Part shown: positions 1,003 to 33,432 of the stretch, piece by piece | How the letters are laid out: each line of letters opens with the position of its first letter | Numbering within the stretch: the first letter of the stretch is position 1 | NCBI GenBank assembly: GCA_005878615.1 | Contig: VBLT01000111.1 | Coordinates: forward strand, 1-33,765 | From: Methanobacteriota archaeon | GTDB lineage: Archaea > Thermoplasmatota > Thermoplasmata > RBG-16-68-12 | DNA length: 33,765 nt | Reading direction: 5' to 3' | Notes under the pieces: generated by a model | What the model was told of the DNA's origin: nothing | The model's input: the letters and a program-made list of their open reading frames with translations, nothing else | Database searches by the model: none | Translations under genes and position numbers: made by a program

Positions 1003-2514
1003 ATGCGAGTTCTCGCCTCGGTCGTCATTGCAGTTTGCCTTTGTGGCGTCATCGCCGGGGCGGCCGCAGGCCTCGCGGGCCGTCCGGTCGTCGTACCCTC
1101 ATTGGACACATCTGCGCCAACTGTAGACATCCTCTTTCCGTCTGGCGGCGAAATACGCGAATCTATGATCCATGCTGATGGGAACGCAACGGATGCCGAC
1201 AGTGGCCTTCAACGCGTTGAGTTGCGGCTGAACGGGGGAGCCTGGCTCGAAGCCTTCGGCGTCACCCCGGGCAGCCAGCATGTAGAATGGTACCGCGGCG
1301 CTCTCGACACGGTGGTGGGCCTGAACCGCCTCGAAGCGCGAGCTTGGGACGTTGCGGGAAACCCATCCGCCACTGCCCACATCGATTTCACGGTCCGACC
1401 GTGGGATCTTTTCATTCACGTGCAACCGGCGAGTCGCTTCTTTGTGCCAGGTGAGGCTGTGAATTACTCGGTGGACATGACGAACGTCGGGAACGAGACG
1501 ACCGCTCTCTACTGGTCGAGCTTCTGTCAAGCCTACATCACGGTCGAGGACCAGACGGGCAAGGAATGGCTCAACCAGAGCCGGGGCCAGACCTGTGCCC
1601 CCGCGTTCTCGAACATCACCCTTGCGCCCGGCGAAAGGTACACGACGAACGGGAGTTGGGATCAGCGGGACAACGGGAGGAATCCCGTGCCGACCCCGGG
1701 CTGCTATGTCCTGCGACATGTGTTCCACAGGTACGCGAACCTCGCGGAGGAACCCGCGATCTTCGGGATCGGCGATTCCCCGTTCAACACGCCCCCGGTC
1801 GCGACGTTCGAGATCATTCCTTCAACGGGCGACACTTTGACGCCCTTTAGCGTCGATGCGAGTCGTTCCTTCGACTGCCATGACAGAACGTCTTCGTTGG
1901 AAGTACGCTGGGACTGGCAGGCCGACGGGCTCTGGGACACCCAGTGGACGGCGGACAAGATCGCGGCGCATTCGTATGCCTCACCAGGTCCACAAACGAT
2001 TCGCCTTGAAGTCCGAGACTCGAACGGAGCGGTCGCAACCGCGTCGCGCGTTGTAACGGTCCAGGCGGCGCCTGATGTAGATTCCCCGACGATCAACCAC
2101 ATGCCGCCTTCCCAAGCGTTCCCCGGGGAAAATCTGACCATTTGGGCGGAGGTCGAAGACGACGGGACAATCGTATCGGTCCAGCTGACGTACTCCGTAG
2201 CCAGCCTGGCCCACAACCTCGACATGGTCGTCCGACAGCCCCACCTGTATGCCGTTGAGGTGATTGCCCCTCAATCGGAAGCGACCCTGCGATACCACAT
2301 CGTCGCCACCGATGCGGCCGGCCATCAGACGCGACTTCCTACCGTCGGTGAATTTCAGATTCCGTTGGTCCCTCAGTCCTCAGTGAGTTCCGACCTTCGA
2401 TCCCTCGGAATTGGCATCGGCCTTGGTGCGTCGGCAGGATCCCTCGCCGTGGCGGTTGCAATCTGGGCCTGGCGAATACGACGAAAGGGCAGCCCGCCCT
2501 CCAAGGAACCGTAG
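1003..2514 (+). CDS. Secreted, membrane-anchored multi-domain surface protein (Ig-like, BsuPI-like, PKD)
   Basis: 503 residues. An N-terminal signal peptide (about 1-26) is followed by an Ig/Big-like segment (35-130) and a segment resembling the BsuPI proteinase-inhibitor fold (about 134-245, with YSVDMTNVGNETT, LAPGERYTTNGSWDQ and PTPGCYVLRH). A PKD domain follows (265-353, with DASRSFDCHD, VRWDWQADG and HSYASPGPQTIRLEV), then another Ig-like domain (357-455). A C-terminal transmembrane helix (466-489) ends in RIRRKG. The protein is therefore exposed outside the cell and anchored at its C terminus. N-glycosylation sequons (NAT, NYS, NET, NQS, NIT) are frequent. GGGAGG sits directly against the ATG, too close for a normal Shine-Dalgarno, and an AT element at 967-973 about 33 bases upstream suggests a leaderless transcript. 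It may be an adhesin or S-layer-associated protein; no enzymatic domain is visible. Confidence 0.85.
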   Translation: MRVLASVVIAVCLCGVIAGAAAGLAGRPVVVPSLDTSAPTVDILFPSGGEIRESMIHADGNATDADSGLQRVELRLNGGAWLEAFGVTPGSQHVEWYRGALDTVVGLNRLEARAWDVAGNPSATAHIDFTVRPWDLFIHVQPASRFFVPGEAVNYSVDMTNVGNETTALYWSSFCQAYITVEDQTGKEWLNQSRGQTCAPAFSNITLAPGERYTTNGSWDQRDNGRNPVPTPGCYVLRHVFHRYANLAEEPAIFGIGDSPFNTPPVATFEIIPSTGDTLTPFSVDASRSFDCHDRTSSLEVRWDWQADGLWDTQWTADKIAAHSYASPGPQTIRLEVRDSNGAVATASRVVTVQAAPDVDSPTINHMPPSQAFPGENLTIWAEVEDDGTIVSVQLTYSVASLAHNLDMVVRQPHLYAVEVIAPQSEATLRYHIVATDAAGHQTRLPTVGEFQIPLVPQSSVSSDLRSLGIGIGLGASAGSLAVAVAIWAWRIRRKGSPPSKEP

Positions 2515-2668
2515 TCGGCTTTCCCTGGACCCCTTGAGAGCGTCACCGGCCAATTTTGGCCCGGACGAGGCAGTCAATTCTTGCTTCGATGGCTGCCAGA
2601 CGCGTCTTCCGCTCTTGGTTCTCATCGGCCCCGTGCAAGAAACCCAAATTCCCTCGCCGGTGTTTCAT
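2515..2668. other. Intergenic gap between convergent genes
   Basis: The stops of the surface protein (plus) and the aminopeptidase (minus) face each other across 154 bases. I see no RNA gene, repeat or convincing open frame; it presumably holds both transcription terminators. Confidence 0.5.
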
Positions 2669-5275
2669 TCAGGAACTTCGGGTCGCGAACCAGCGTGCGA
2701 GGTCTTTCCCGTTGTTCTTCAGCCAGGCGGCGTTGACGCGGATCTTCTCGATCGACTGCTGCACGGTCCGGCGGACTTCCGGGGCTTCGCGGCCCCGGAA
2801 GAATCGCTCCACGTCCTTCACGGCTTCCGGCGTCGTGAACTCCTGCGCGATCTGCACGAGCCTCCGGATCAGGAACCCGGATTCGGCATAGCGGCGGTAG
2901 AGCTCGTCCCAGTTGTCCTTGACGAAGGACCACGCGAGGTCCCGCCCGACGCTCGGGCGGCTGGCCGCGACGGTCGTGATGACGAGCACGGCGTCCTGGG
3001 AACGGACCGCGTCCGTGAGGGAACGCCGCAGGGTCTCCTGCAGGAGCCGCTCGTCGCGCGGATGGCTCAGGGCCATGAGGAGGCGCACCTGCTCCTCCTG
3101 GAGGGCCGCCTTTCGCTGAAGCTCCCAGAGCGTTTCGTAGGTGGCCTGGTCCGCCTGCTGGCCGACGAGGTTGTACACGACCCCGCGCAGGTCCGGATGG
3201 AGGGTCGACGGGTCCTTGAGGTATCGCGCAAACCGGCGACCCGCCTCCGTGAGGACGGGGCGGTAGGAATGGTGGCCGAGGCGGCTCAGGACCGTCGAGC
3301 GCTTGAGCGCATCCAGGTGGCCTTCGCGCGGTTTCGGGTCCCACCCGCTCTGCTCGCCCGCGCGACGGAACAGCTCCCGCCCATAGGCGTCGAATTTCTC
3401 CAGGTACCGCGTATCCGAGATCAGCGTCTCGACGTCATGGAGGGACTCCGCGATCAGCCGCCATCCGGTCGCGTCGTCCTCGCCGCGATAAGCGGCCGTG
3501 AGGTCGAGGAGCGTCGTCGCGGGCAGATATCCGGCCCGCATGAGAGCGTGGGCGTCGTTCTGCAGCCCACTCCGGTCCTCCGTCCCGAGCTCGCCCGCTT
3601 CGACGGCCCGTCGGAGCCGGTCCCATTCCTCCGGCGGATAATTGACGCGGTAGAATCCCGACTGGCCGGCATTCACCTTGATCCAGTCCTTGTCGGCCGA
3701 TCGCCGGGACCGTCCGAGGGGACGCGATTCGGTCTTCTTCTCCATGAGGAAGGACACCGGCTTCTTCTGCCCCGCCCGCGCGATCCGCACGGGGACCTTC
3801 CACCGCGTCCGGTCCTTGGAGGGCCCGAGGATGTCGCTGTAGAGGAAGCGGGACTGGGTGAGGCCGACCCGGGCGCTCCCGCCGGTCCTCTTCACCTGGA
3901 CGTCCAGGAGGGGGAACCCCGTCTGCCGGGTCCAGGAGCCCATGAGCGCCCGAACCGGCTGGTGCGAAGCGGCGGTCAGCGCCCGCCACAAGTCCTCCGT
4001 CCGCGCGTTGCCGTAGGCATGGGCCTTCAGGTAATCGCGGATCCCGCGCCGGAACGTCGCCTCCCCGAGAAACTGCTCCAGCATCCGCAAGATCGAGGCG
4101 CCCTTGCTGTAGCTGATGTCATCGAAGATCTCGCGGATCTCCGCCGGGTCCCGGACGGGGACCTCGATCGGGTGGGAGCTCTTGAGGCCGTCCAGGGCGA
4201 GCCCGCGGACGATGTCCTCCTCCAAGAACTGGGTCCACATCTTCCACTCCGGATGGAGGGCGCCGGTCGTCTTGGCCCCCATCCACGACGCGAAGCTCTC
4301 GTTCAGCCAGAGGTCGTCCCACCACGCCATCGTGACGAGGTCCCCGAACCACATGTGGGCCGTCTCGTGGGCGATGACCTCGACGATCGTCTGCCGCGTC
4401 TGCGCGGAGGAGGTGGCGGGGTCGAAGAGCAGGATCCGCTCCCGGTACGTGATCGCGCCCCAGTTCTCCATCGCGCCGGCGGCGAAGTCCTGGAGCGCGA
4501 TGTGGTCGAGCTTCTCGAGCGGATACGGAATGCCATAGTAGTCGTTCAGGTAGTCGAGGATGCGGATCGCTTCGTCGAGGGCCCAGCGGCTGTGGCCGAT
4601 CCGGTCCGGAAGGGCCCACACTGCGAGTTTCGTGCCCCGCCGGGCCTTGCCTTCGATCGTATCGAGGGGGCCGATCGCGAAGGCGAGGAGGTACGTCGAC
4701 ATCCGCGGCGTCTCCGCGAACCTCACGAGGCGGGTGCCATCCCCGAGATCCTTCTCGTCGAGTGGCGGCGTGTTCGAGATCGCCGTCATCCCATCGGGGA
4801 CGACGAGGGACACCTCGAAGGTCGCCTTCGCGGCGGGCTCGTCCCAGCAGGGGAAGGCGCGCCGTGCGTTCGTCGACTCGAACTGGGTCGCGGCCATGTA
4901 CCCTTGCTTCCCGTCGGACATCGTGTACCGGCTTCGGTAGAAGCCCGCGAGTTCGTCGTTGAGCGTGCCGGAAAACGAGAGCCTCAGGGTCGCGGGACCG
5001 GAGGGGACGGACTCGGCGAAGTCCAGCCGCAACACCTCACGCTTCGAATCGAAATCGATCGAGGTCGCCGGAAGGCTCCCGCCCTTCGACGAGCTGACCG
5101 TGGCCTCGCGGACCTCGAGTCCTTCCGCGTTCAGCACGATCGTCTTCGTGGGCCGCGCGACCTGAATCCGGATCGACTCGCTCCCCTCGAACGAGAAGGC
5201 CTTGAGGTTCGGTCGCAGCTCAATCGAATACTTCTCCGGTCGCACGGTATCGGGCAGGCGGTGTTCCGTGGCCAT
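2669..5275 (-). CDS. M1-family zinc aminopeptidase (tricorn-interacting-factor type)
   Basis: 868 residues starting at ATG 5275. The exopeptidase motif GAMENWG is at 267-273, and the zinc site HETAH (303-307) with the third ligand in NESFAS (Glu326) gives the canonical HExxH-x18-E spacing. The N-terminal beta-saddle domain precedes it, and an ERAP-like helical C-terminal domain follows. The family removes N-terminal residues from peptides; archaeal F2/F3 relatives finish degradation of proteasome or tricorn products in the cytoplasm. At 868 residues it is somewhat longer than the roughly 780-residue Thermoplasma factors, part of this being a basic Arg/Lys-rich linker near residue 530. A purine-rich Shine-Dalgarno (GGGAAGGGAG) lies just upstream and an AT-rich promoter at about 5322-5333, so this gene has a leader. 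Confidence 0.95.
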   Translation of the reverse strand: MATEHRLPDTVRPEKYSIELRPNLKAFSFEGSESIRIQVARPTKTIVLNAEGLEVREATVSSSKGGSLPATSIDFDSKREVLRLDFAESVPSGPATLRLSFSGTLNDELAGFYRSRYTMSDGKQGYMAATQFESTNARRAFPCWDEPAAKATFEVSLVVPDGMTAISNTPPLDEKDLGDGTRLVRFAETPRMSTYLLAFAIGPLDTIEGKARRGTKLAVWALPDRIGHSRWALDEAIRILDYLNDYYGIPYPLEKLDHIALQDFAAGAMENWGAITYRERILLFDPATSSAQTRQTIVEVIAHETAHMWFGDLVTMAWWDDLWLNESFASWMGAKTTGALHPEWKMWTQFLEEDIVRGLALDGLKSSHPIEVPVRDPAEIREIFDDISYSKGASILRMLEQFLGEATFRRGIRDYLKAHAYGNARTEDLWRALTAASHQPVRALMGSWTRQTGFPLLDVQVKRTGGSARVGLTQSRFLYSDILGPSKDRTRWKVPVRIARAGQKKPVSFLMEKKTESRPLGRSRRSADKDWIKVNAGQSGFYRVNYPPEEWDRLRRAVEAGELGTEDRSGLQNDAHALMRAGYLPATTLLDLTAAYRGEDDATGWRLIAESLHDVETLISDTRYLEKFDAYGRELFRRAGEQSGWDPKPREGHLDALKRSTVLSRLGHHSYRPVLTEAGRRFARYLKDPSTLHPDLRGVVYNLVGQQADQATYETLWELQRKAALQEEQVRLLMALSHPRDERLLQETLRRSLTDAVRSQDAVLVITTVAASRPSVGRDLAWSFVKDNWDELYRRYAESGFLIRRLVQIAQEFTTPEAVKDVERFFRGREAPEVRRTVQQSIEKIRVNAAWLKNNGKDLARWFATRSS

Positions 5276-30285: not shown

Positions 30286-32817
30286 GTGCAACGCCGACTG
30301 CTGTTTGCCGTCCTTGTAATCGTCTTTCTTGTGGCCGCGCCTCCCCTCCTGCTCGGAGGCGGTGCGTCGGCCAAGACACCGCCGCAGCCTCCGGGTGGCT
30401 TCGTCGACGCGATTCGATTCTTCCAGCAACCGAACCAGGCTCAGGCGCTGGTCGATCTGAAGAGCGGGGCGATGGACGTCTACACGTTCCCCCTCCGGTC
30501 CGTCGCGGACATTGCGGCGGCCCACTCGGACCCCGCGCTACGGACCGCGGACACGTACGGGTTCGAGAACGATCTGTTCGTCAACCCGGTCCCGGTGGAC
30601 CAGAACCAGGCGCCCGGCGTCTTCAACCCGTTCGCGATCCGCGAAGTCCGGCAGGGACTCAACTACGTGATCGATCGAGATTACCTCAATACTAATCTCT
30701 TCGGCGGGGCCGGCCTGCCGCATGCCGTCACCTGGAACGATGCGAGCCCGGAGGTCGTCCGCGATCCTTTCTTCTTCCGGGATACAAACCGCGGCGCGGG
30801 CTTCGATTTCGATCGAGGGAAGACCATCATCTCCAACGCATTGTTTGCCGCGGGGGCCACCTACGATGGGACGTGGAAGTGGCAGGGCAACCCGATCGTC
30901 ATCCCGATCGTCATTCGAATCGATGACTTCCGTCGACCGCTCGGCGACTACGTGGCGAATCAGGTGGAGAGCCTCGGTTTTTCCGTGAACCGACGGTACA
31001 TGTCCGCGGGAGGCGCATTCCAGACCGTGTACTTTGGACCGCCCGACACGGGGGCCTGGATGTTGTACACCGAAGCCTGGTTCAGCTTCCTTGAGGTCCA
31101 ACGGTGGCCCGATTCCGACCTGGACTTCTACAACTGCGGCGGAGAAGGGAGCGCGATCTGGTCGTTCTATTCTCCTCCCCCCGAGCTACGGGACGTTTGT
31201 TCGAGGTTGCTGTTCGGGCGATACGCCAGCGAGTCCGAACGACAGGCTCTCGTGGAACAAGGGACCGCACTCTCCCTCGGGGAGTCCGTCCGGGTGTGGC
31301 TCGTCGGGTCCAGCACCCAACCGTATTCCTCGCGCGTGACGGCCATCGCGTCCGACTCGCAGGGCGGGCTGTTCAGTCCGTTCTCCCTGCGGACCGCGCG
31401 CTTCGCGTCCCCCGGTGGGACCTTGGCGGTCGGGCAGCGAGTTCAGTTCATCTCCACGTTCCAGCCTTGGCAAGGGTTTGCATTCGTCTACGACGCCGTC
31501 ATCGGACAAACGTTCATGGACCAAGGTCTGTCGACGCATCCCCGATCCGGCGCCTTCATCCCGGTCCGTTCTGTATTCGAGACGACGACGGCCGGGCCGA
31601 GCGGCACGATGGCGGTCCCACCGGACGCATTGACGTGGGATCCTAGCACCATGGGATTCACCACCGTACCGGCGGGAACCACCTCGATGTCGAAGGTCCG
31701 GTTCCACTACACGTTCGGCACGTGGCACGACGGGGTGGCAGGGAACATGGCCGACGTGCTCTACCAGATTGCCCTGATCGCCCGGCGGGATCGCGGCGAT
31801 GTCTCATCCCACGACTTCGACGCGGTGAATGTCCATGACCGAATGTTCGACAACCTGTTCCGCGGCCTGAAGGTCATCGATCCGACGACCTTAGATCTCT
31901 ACATCGACTATTGGCATGTCGATCCCTCGTTCATCGCATCAGCGGCCGACGTATGGCCAGCCACGCCGTGGGAGGTCGGCGAACTCGCGATGGCGACCAC
32001 CCTCCACGACCACACGCGGGTCAGTGAGTTGACCGCGGCGTTCGACGGGCTCGACGCGATCGACCTAGCGAAGGGGCCTGCCGTTGAATTCATGGACCGG
32101 GAGATTTCGTCGGGGAATATCACCACCCGCGGTCCGTCCGTGACGAGGCCGCCCGGCTTCGAGTCGTACGTCACCCAATCCGAGGCCGAGGCACGGTGGA
32201 CGGCGCTTCAGAGTTGGCGGACCGCTCACGGTCACTATTTCGTTAGCAACGGCCCGTACTTCTTGGATTCGGTCGATCCGGCGGCGAGCCAGGCAACGGT
32301 CCGAAACTTTGCGGGCTATCCGTTCCCGCGCGATCGATGGGAGGCGCTCCTGGACCCACCGGTCCCGAATCTCGCGATCGATCCGATCGACGATGTCCAG
32401 CAAGGCGATGAAGCGTCCGTCTCCATGTTCACGAGGGTCAACGGAAAATTGTTCGATGATGCGACCGTCCACTTCCGCATCCAAGCCGTCGGCAGCCCGG
32501 ACACCTTGCTGTCGGGAATTCCGGACCACGTCGGGAAAGGAGAGTGGCAGGCCGACCTGACCGCGGACTTCACGAGGAATTTGGCGCCGGGAACCTACTC
32601 ATTCCAGGCTGCCTCGAGCGCGAATGCGAACTTCGTCGTCGCGTTCGCGGACCGGACGTTCCGAATCGTCTCCGCGAACAACGCGATGAGCCCGATGTTC
32701 GTGACCTCGATCGAATCGGCGCCGACGCCTAGCGCGGCCCCGATTCAACTCGGCGCCGCCGCCTGGGACGATCGCGGCTCCGCTCGCATTTCAATCTCGT
32801 TCTGCGGATCGGGTTGA
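30286..32817 (+). CDS. Family-5-type extracellular solute-binding protein with circularly permuted motif order
   Basis: 843 residues from GTG 30286. A signal peptide (1-29, ending GGGASA) is followed by ALVDLKSGAMDVYTFP (about 54-69) and REVRQGLNYVIDRDYL (119-134), which are normally the middle of peptide/nickel-binding (SBP family 5) proteins. WQGFAFVYDAVIG (395-407), FGTWHDGVAGNMADVLYQI (477-495) and SNGPYFLDSV (654-663), normally the N-terminal lobe, come afterwards. A C-terminal Ig-like domain (about 695-800) ends the chain without a membrane anchor or lipobox. It would capture a ligand outside the cell, but no permease genes are adjacent. It is much longer than the usual 500-600 residues. 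Confidence 0.85.
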   Translation: MQRRLLFAVLVIVFLVAAPPLLLGGGASAKTPPQPPGGFVDAIRFFQQPNQAQALVDLKSGAMDVYTFPLRSVADIAAAHSDPALRTADTYGFENDLFVNPVPVDQNQAPGVFNPFAIREVRQGLNYVIDRDYLNTNLFGGAGLPHAVTWNDASPEVVRDPFFFRDTNRGAGFDFDRGKTIISNALFAAGATYDGTWKWQGNPIVIPIVIRIDDFRRPLGDYVANQVESLGFSVNRRYMSAGGAFQTVYFGPPDTGAWMLYTEAWFSFLEVQRWPDSDLDFYNCGGEGSAIWSFYSPPPELRDVCSRLLFGRYASESERQALVEQGTALSLGESVRVWLVGSSTQPYSSRVTAIASDSQGGLFSPFSLRTARFASPGGTLAVGQRVQFISTFQPWQGFAFVYDAVIGQTFMDQGLSTHPRSGAFIPVRSVFETTTAGPSGTMAVPPDALTWDPSTMGFTTVPAGTTSMSKVRFHYTFGTWHDGVAGNMADVLYQIALIARRDRGDVSSHDFDAVNVHDRMFDNLFRGLKVIDPTTLDLYIDYWHVDPSFIASAADVWPATPWEVGELAMATTLHDHTRVSELTAAFDGLDAIDLAKGPAVEFMDREISSGNITTRGPSVTRPPGFESYVTQSEAEARWTALQSWRTAHGHYFVSNGPYFLDSVDPAASQATVRNFAGYPFPRDRWEALLDPPVPNLAIDPIDDVQQGDEASVSMFTRVNGKLFDDATVHFRIQAVGSPDTLLSGIPDHVGKGEWQADLTADFTRNLAPGTYSFQAASSANANFVVAFADRTFRIVSANNAMSPMFVTSIESAPTPSAAPIQLGAAAWDDRGSARISISFCGSG

Positions 32818-32913: not shown

Positions 32914-33432
32914 TCATGCCTTCATCGATTCCCGCGTGCCGCTCCGCAAGAATCTCCAGAACCCCAGGAGGATCGAGGAGGCAGGCACCGCGATGAACCA
33001 GAGGGCCAGGACCCAACCGGCCCCCGGGCGCGCGTCGCAGAGCGATGGGATGAGGGAGAACAGGACGCCGTTCAGGCAGAAGACCTCGAGCAGGCCCCAC
33101 ACGGGGATCCCGGAGAAGGCGAGGGCGAGCGCCAAGTACGTTGAATCACGGTCCTCCCTCCAGAGCGGCCGTCCGGCGACGACGAACAGGGCGGCGATGA
33201 ACACCATGCCCACGTCGATCAGGACGAGGCTGATCGCGTACCCGTACACCTTGGCGGAAGGGTTCGCGAACGAGAGGCCGCCGGAGAGCGCGAGCACGCC
33301 GACCAGCGTCGCGATGATCATGTACGGGATCGGCGAGAGCCTCGGATGCCGCTCGAAGAAATCGATGCGCCGGACCTGCCGGTCCCAGAGGAATCGAGAC
33401 CATCGGGTTCGCCGGAACCCTCCGCGGCCCAC
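32914..33432 (-). CDS. Four-TM membrane protein, unknown function
   Basis: 172 residues from GTG 33432. A basic N terminus (MGRGGFRRTRWSRFLWDRQVRR) precedes four hydrophobic helices: IPYMIIATLVGVLALSGGL, VYGYAISLVLIDVGMVFIAAL, YLALALAFSGIPVWGLLEVF, and GWVLALWFIAVPASSILLGFW. The topology places both ends in the cytoplasm. A single FCLNG motif and a later Cys are the only cysteines. No family was recognised. It is divergent from the 23S rRNA transcription unit. Confidence 0.65.
   Translation of the reverse strand: MGRGGFRRTRWSRFLWDRQVRRIDFFERHPRLSPIPYMIIATLVGVLALSGGLSFANPSAKVYGYAISLVLIDVGMVFIAALFVVAGRPLWREDRDSTYLALALAFSGIPVWGLLEVFCLNGVLFSLIPSLCDARPGAGWVLALWFIAVPASSILLGFWRFLRSGTRESMKA

Follow-up and report, generated by a model that had tools for sequence, protein, structure and literature searches.

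Family-5 solute-binding proteins (SBPs) of the DppABCDF systems have two lobes that close around the ligand, and they dock onto the paired permeases (PMC12136057). In canonical OppA, the N- and C-termini are both located in one lobe. The solved protein closest to the one described here is an archaeal OppA, PDB 7fi3, which is probably the structure described by Yokoyama et al. 2022, Proteins 90:1434, a paper cited in PMC12136057. Both halves of the permuted family described below align with it along most of the SBP core, and it also shares the segment that precedes GPY in that family. The difference lies in the order, which is canonical in 7fi3, whereas in the permuted family the C-terminal part comes first and the new termini lie near chain residues 310–323. 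The DppA/OppA/AppA/NikA-type SBPs (PF00496; 1dpp, 1xoc, 4ofj) are likewise related, since a profile of the C-terminal part of the permuted family matches downstream of their N-terminal region. Unlike them, the permuted family has the swapped order, an Ig-like stalk and a C-terminal anchor, and its N-terminal part is too diverged from theirs for a sequence match. The open-access literature searched, which excludes most subscription journals, yielded no description of family-5 SBPs that are permuted in nature.

The protein is encoded in a 33,765-nucleotide archaeal contig (VBLT01000111.1), referred to as a whole as the window, by the ORF at 30286–32817. It is highly likely to be a family-5 SBP (cluster C, OppA/DppA-type) that has undergone natural circular permutation; the fold itself is inferred, as no usable structure model was obtained.

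Architecture of the protein

The ORF lies on the forward strand and consists of one uninterrupted frame of 843 amino acids with a GTG start (Table 1). The original prediction, made from sequence alone, was that the signature motifs of the family occur out of order, and all of them were found at the predicted residues: SGAMD at 60–64, RQGLNYVIDRD at 122–132, GTWHDG at 478–483 and SNGPYFL at 654–660. Both WHDG and SNGPY thus fall within the part placed second, which corresponds to the N-terminal part of a canonical SBP. The assignment of a signal peptide is inferred from hydrophobicity and alignment, without a cleavage prediction. At the junction of the two parts, the gap between the two half-profiles is about 10–16 residues in most relatives.

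In its native order, the protein is matched by Pfam PF00496 (SBP_bac_5) only at residues 40–247 (profile 148–328; 49.2 bits against a gathering cut-off of 32.4), which is just about a quarter of its length, with the later part of the profile sitting at the start of the protein. The ORF meets the PF00496 sequence criteria, namely the score and the presence of both core parts, but not the canonical N-to-C order, and the protein is filed as a permuted variant of the family, not as a canonical member. An extra Ig-like domain had also been predicted after the core. A segment conserved in the relatives is indeed present there, but Pfam does not match it, a profile of it found nothing in the PDB below E 0.1, and the label “Ig-like” is an inference from the appearance of the sequence.

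Table 1 Features of the permuted SBP gene and its 3′ flank
Feature	Residues	Position	Strand	Basis
Signal peptide (inferred)	1–29	30286..30372	+	Hydrophobic N-terminus (head KD 3.06), aligns with N-termini of relatives
Canonical C-terminal SBP part, placed first	39–373	30400..31404	+	Pfam SBP_bac_5 profile 148–328; 7fi3_A 323–584
Fusion junction, canonical C-terminus to canonical N-terminus (FSLRTARFASPG)	364–375	31375..31410	+	Junctions of relatives at the same place
Canonical N-terminal SBP part, placed second	376–697	31411..32376	+	7fi3_A 67–310 (single sequence), 17–310 (family profile)
Ig-like (beta-sandwich-like) domain after SBP core (label inferred)	694–784	32365..32637	+	Segment conserved in relatives
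Truncated start of second Ig-like repeat, then stop; no membrane anchor		32638..32817	+	Comparison with G001:C79 and G015:C34
Convergent ORF, 172 aa, beginning where the lost tail would lie		32914..33432	-	Codon-position GC

The two halves are swapped with respect to canonical SBPs

A phmmer search of the PDB with the protein in its native order matched one chain, 7fi3_A (E 5.5e-24), in two blocks that are out of order: residues 41–283 align with chain residues 323–584, and residues 440–682 with 67–310. Such an out-of-order match far exceeds chance. The order was then restored in silico by placing residues 374–697 ahead of 39–373. The restored sequence gave a single collinear match to 7fi3_A (67–569 to chain 67–584) of 102.1 bits, whereas the native-order blocks score 60.3 and 32.6 bits, and the halves proved complementary on the chain, with nearly no gap or overlap. 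The Pfam SBP_bac_5 match rose in parallel from 49.2 to 59.6 bits and was extended from profile positions 148–328 to 28–328. Circular permutation is supported because the protein holds exactly one copy of each SBP half, the two are swapped, and the restored order gives one collinear match.

The profiles of the separate halves point the same way, since they match canonical SBPs of known structure in opposite regions. The first-half profile (the C-terminal part), built from 26 family members and searched against solved sequences, matched 25 of them, and in full-length canonical SBPs the match never began before residue 183 (for example, DppA 1dpp 211–343, AppA 1xoc 213–477 and 7fi3_A 330–599). 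In canonical SBPs of related genomes it again fell downstream of the N-terminal part, at 267–493 of a 664-codon frame (L063) and at 232–396 of about 560 (L117–L119). The second-half profile matched 7fi3_A at 17–310 (E 2.1e-38), the sole PDB chain that it found, and in the native order Pfam does not recognise this half by itself. Invariant residues are present in both halves across the family.

The predicted circular permutation therefore held at the level of sequence, by swap-back, half-profiles and homologues, while the fold was not shown. Two AlphaFold2 models, computed from only three sequences (the window protein, L001 and L002), were of low confidence (pLDDT 37.4 and 41.8) and constitute no evidence for or against an SBP fold.

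Relatives and genomic context

Homologues with the same order, sought as a check on the prediction, were found widely, which supports the permutation. A paralogue in the same genome, G000:C19, is 46% identical to the window protein and has the same permuted order, which is also found in relatives from six other genomes (G001, G002, G008, G015, G017 and G026), in L001, from a Brockarchaeota metagenome-assembled genome (MAG), and in the partial L002, from a MAG named as Crenarchaeota. These relatives span 19–61% identity, and every family member having both halves shows the swapped order. A more distant set in family f12 has the same order as well. No relatives of the permuted protein were found in the viral contigs scanned. 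In the f12 set, a 2032-aa ORF (L046:1457–7552, +; G086:C19) comprises two permuted SBP units with GLUG repeats in between.

The family is common in the phylum of L001 and rare or patchy in that of the window. In the former, the permuted L001 protein has a match at E ≤ 0.001 in 221 of 349 sampled genomes. Most listed matches extend collinearly across nearly the whole query, the order of C-terminal part, N-terminal part and Ig-like domain was seen in all 29 of those that were fetched, and 30 loci of this phylum share the swapped order. In the latter, 6 of 293 sampled genomes were matched, some merely by partial hits to canonical SBPs. In a quick tree, the order-level group of the window is nested among sequences from the phylum of L001, although the joining branch has only limited support (SH-aLRT 93). 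This nesting of the L003 group, together with the rarity of the family in its own phylum, leaves lateral acquisition by the lineage of the window as a possibility.

Genes for dppBCDF or dppBCD adjoin the permuted relatives in seven loci (L002, L013, L048, L051, L052, L054 and L055), and G000:C19 is located in a dppBCDF operon. No DppBCDF-type permease or ATPase genes are found within the window, where the ORF is preceded upstream by archaeal information-processing genes (Gins51, Toprim/primase-like and LonB-like). Two of the DppC proteins encoded beside permuted SBPs are long (L013:11231–12757, −, 508 aa; L002:3068–4483, +, 471 aa), the extra length being a long stretch between the first and the later membrane segments. 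This stretch might conceivably be a docking place for the permuted partner, which is an inference only.

The window copy is a truncated orphan

Following the Ig-like domain, nearly all complete relatives carry a strongly hydrophobic C-terminal segment (maximum KD 2.4–3.4), which is retained in G000:C19. The tail of the window protein reaches a KD of only 0.71, and the anchor is absent. The nearest relative, G001:C79, is 55% identical to the window protein over nearly its full length. It continues, as does the orphan G015:C34, into bacterial-Ig-like repeats (Big_13/Big_7/Big_5-type); G015:C34 terminates in a membrane anchor and G001:C79 runs off the contig end. The window frame instead stops early, within the second Ig-like repeat. 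A tblastn search of the window with homologous tails gave no convincing continuation in other frames, and the codon-position GC switches strand and frame after about 32836, to a convergent gene without a Pfam hit. A frameshifted C-terminal continuation was ruled out on these two grounds. From the early stop, the absence of the tail in other frames and the GC switch, it follows that the window copy is a 3′-truncated orphan. The lack of an anchor and of permease genes, which had been noted as unusual, is thus true of this copy only; complete relatives are anchored and many are found beside dppBCDF.

The orphan relative G015:C34 (L057, G015:C34:1–12000; frames at 1088–4566, −), with its extra Ig-like repeats and anchor, has a reading frame that is split over frames and contains an in-frame TAA.

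A second permutation in the same genome

Another SBP of the same genome, G000:C29 (L017:3320–5296, +), is also permuted, with PF00496 profile positions 297–365 preceding 2–276. Like the window family, it represents a natural circular permutation of PF00496, with dppB, dppC and dppD downstream. Unlike in that family, the chain is cut between the AN.LL..LGY segment and IELWYN, the anchor is N-terminal and is kept in front of the moved C-terminal part, and there are canonical sisters about 40% identical to it. When swapped back, the protein gave one match to profile 2–365 of 188.9 bits, compared with 177.4 bits in two stretches. This permuted order was found at full length in ten loci, including G000:C29 itself, and in at least ten genomes, whereas five related loci, at about 35–43% identity, have the canonical order. 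The permuted rows all lie on one side of one branch (support 88/96), and the tree is consistent with a single origin of this type. Because the cut sites differ, it is most simply regarded as an event separate from that of the window family. So far, it has been found in the taxonomic family of the window and in one other lineage of its order.

Alternative explanations

The original prediction had left open a fusion of two partial copies. In this rival reading, a C-terminal fragment was joined to the N-terminal fragment of another SBP, and there is no single flytrap, or one formed only by domain swapping between two chains. This cannot be excluded without a structure; an intermediate of similar form would also be expected if the permutation arose by duplication, and L046 has two permuted units in one ORF. 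As a route of origin, which is the main respect in which it differs, fusion is inseparable here from permutation by duplication. Nevertheless, the protein has exactly one of each half, complementary on 7fi3_A, and the arrangement is conserved across many genomes, often adjoining dppBCDF, with invariant residues in both halves; a fusion of this kind is very improbable. That an assembly or frame artefact reversed the halves can be all but dismissed: the genome assembly is fragmented (152 contigs), but the same order is kept in many independent assemblies and in the paralogue of the same genome.

Other alternatives concern the window copy. It may be a decaying pseudogene, permuted by descent, which has lost its 3′ end and anchor, a reading compatible with permutation as the best explanation for the family. 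The stop inside the second Ig-like repeat, the missing anchor, the absence of adjoining transporter genes and the disrupted frame of its sister orphan G015:C34 speak for it; against it, the 843-codon frame is intact, with coding-type codon-position GC right up to the stop, the signal peptide is retained, and the similarity to G001:C79 extends over almost the entire length. We regard decay as a real possibility. It is less plausible that the orphan copy is a surface sensor or adhesin and not a transport component. Transporter genes do not adjoin it, and the orphan relatives in G001 and G015 have extra Ig-like repeats, but the complete paralogue C19 of the same genome lies within a dppBCDF operon.

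Proposed mechanism and implications

Under circular permutation, the preferred explanation, a short linker would connect the canonical C-terminus to the canonical N-terminus, which should be feasible as both lie in one lobe, and the chain would have gained its new termini in the stretch separating GPY...YP.W from VD.I....SG.MD. The permuted chain is inferred to retain the two-lobed Venus flytrap, with its termini, and hence its tether, relocated. As the family bears the Ig-like stalk and a transmembrane anchor at the new C-terminus, frequently with a coiled-coil-like segment as well, the permutation would shift the tethering point of the binding protein. The permuted SBP would be secreted, bind peptides or other small solutes and hand them to a DppBCDF-type importer; binding, substrate, docking and transport are all inferred, and there is no ligand evidence for the permuted family. 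The window copy would be either a released binding protein using a transporter encoded elsewhere (for example, that of C19) or an early pseudogene, and, being truncated, may be non-functional.

A bolder reading, which we consider probable as one joint claim, is that archaeal SBPs of the PF00496 family have undergone two or more circular permutations, each with its own cut site, that one of these events founded a large family, that both types stand beside DppBC-type transporters, and that the flytrap tolerates new termini and its tether point can move. Binding proteins are permuted in the laboratory to serve as biosensors, whereas no natural case for this family came up in the open-access literature searched. 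Annotation by domain model, in which PF00496 covers so small a part of the protein, gives an incomplete account of an uptake protein that is common in archaea. Should the fold be confirmed, these organisms would offer a natural experiment, with two cut sites, canonical sisters about 40% identical and the transporters that accept the permuted proteins.
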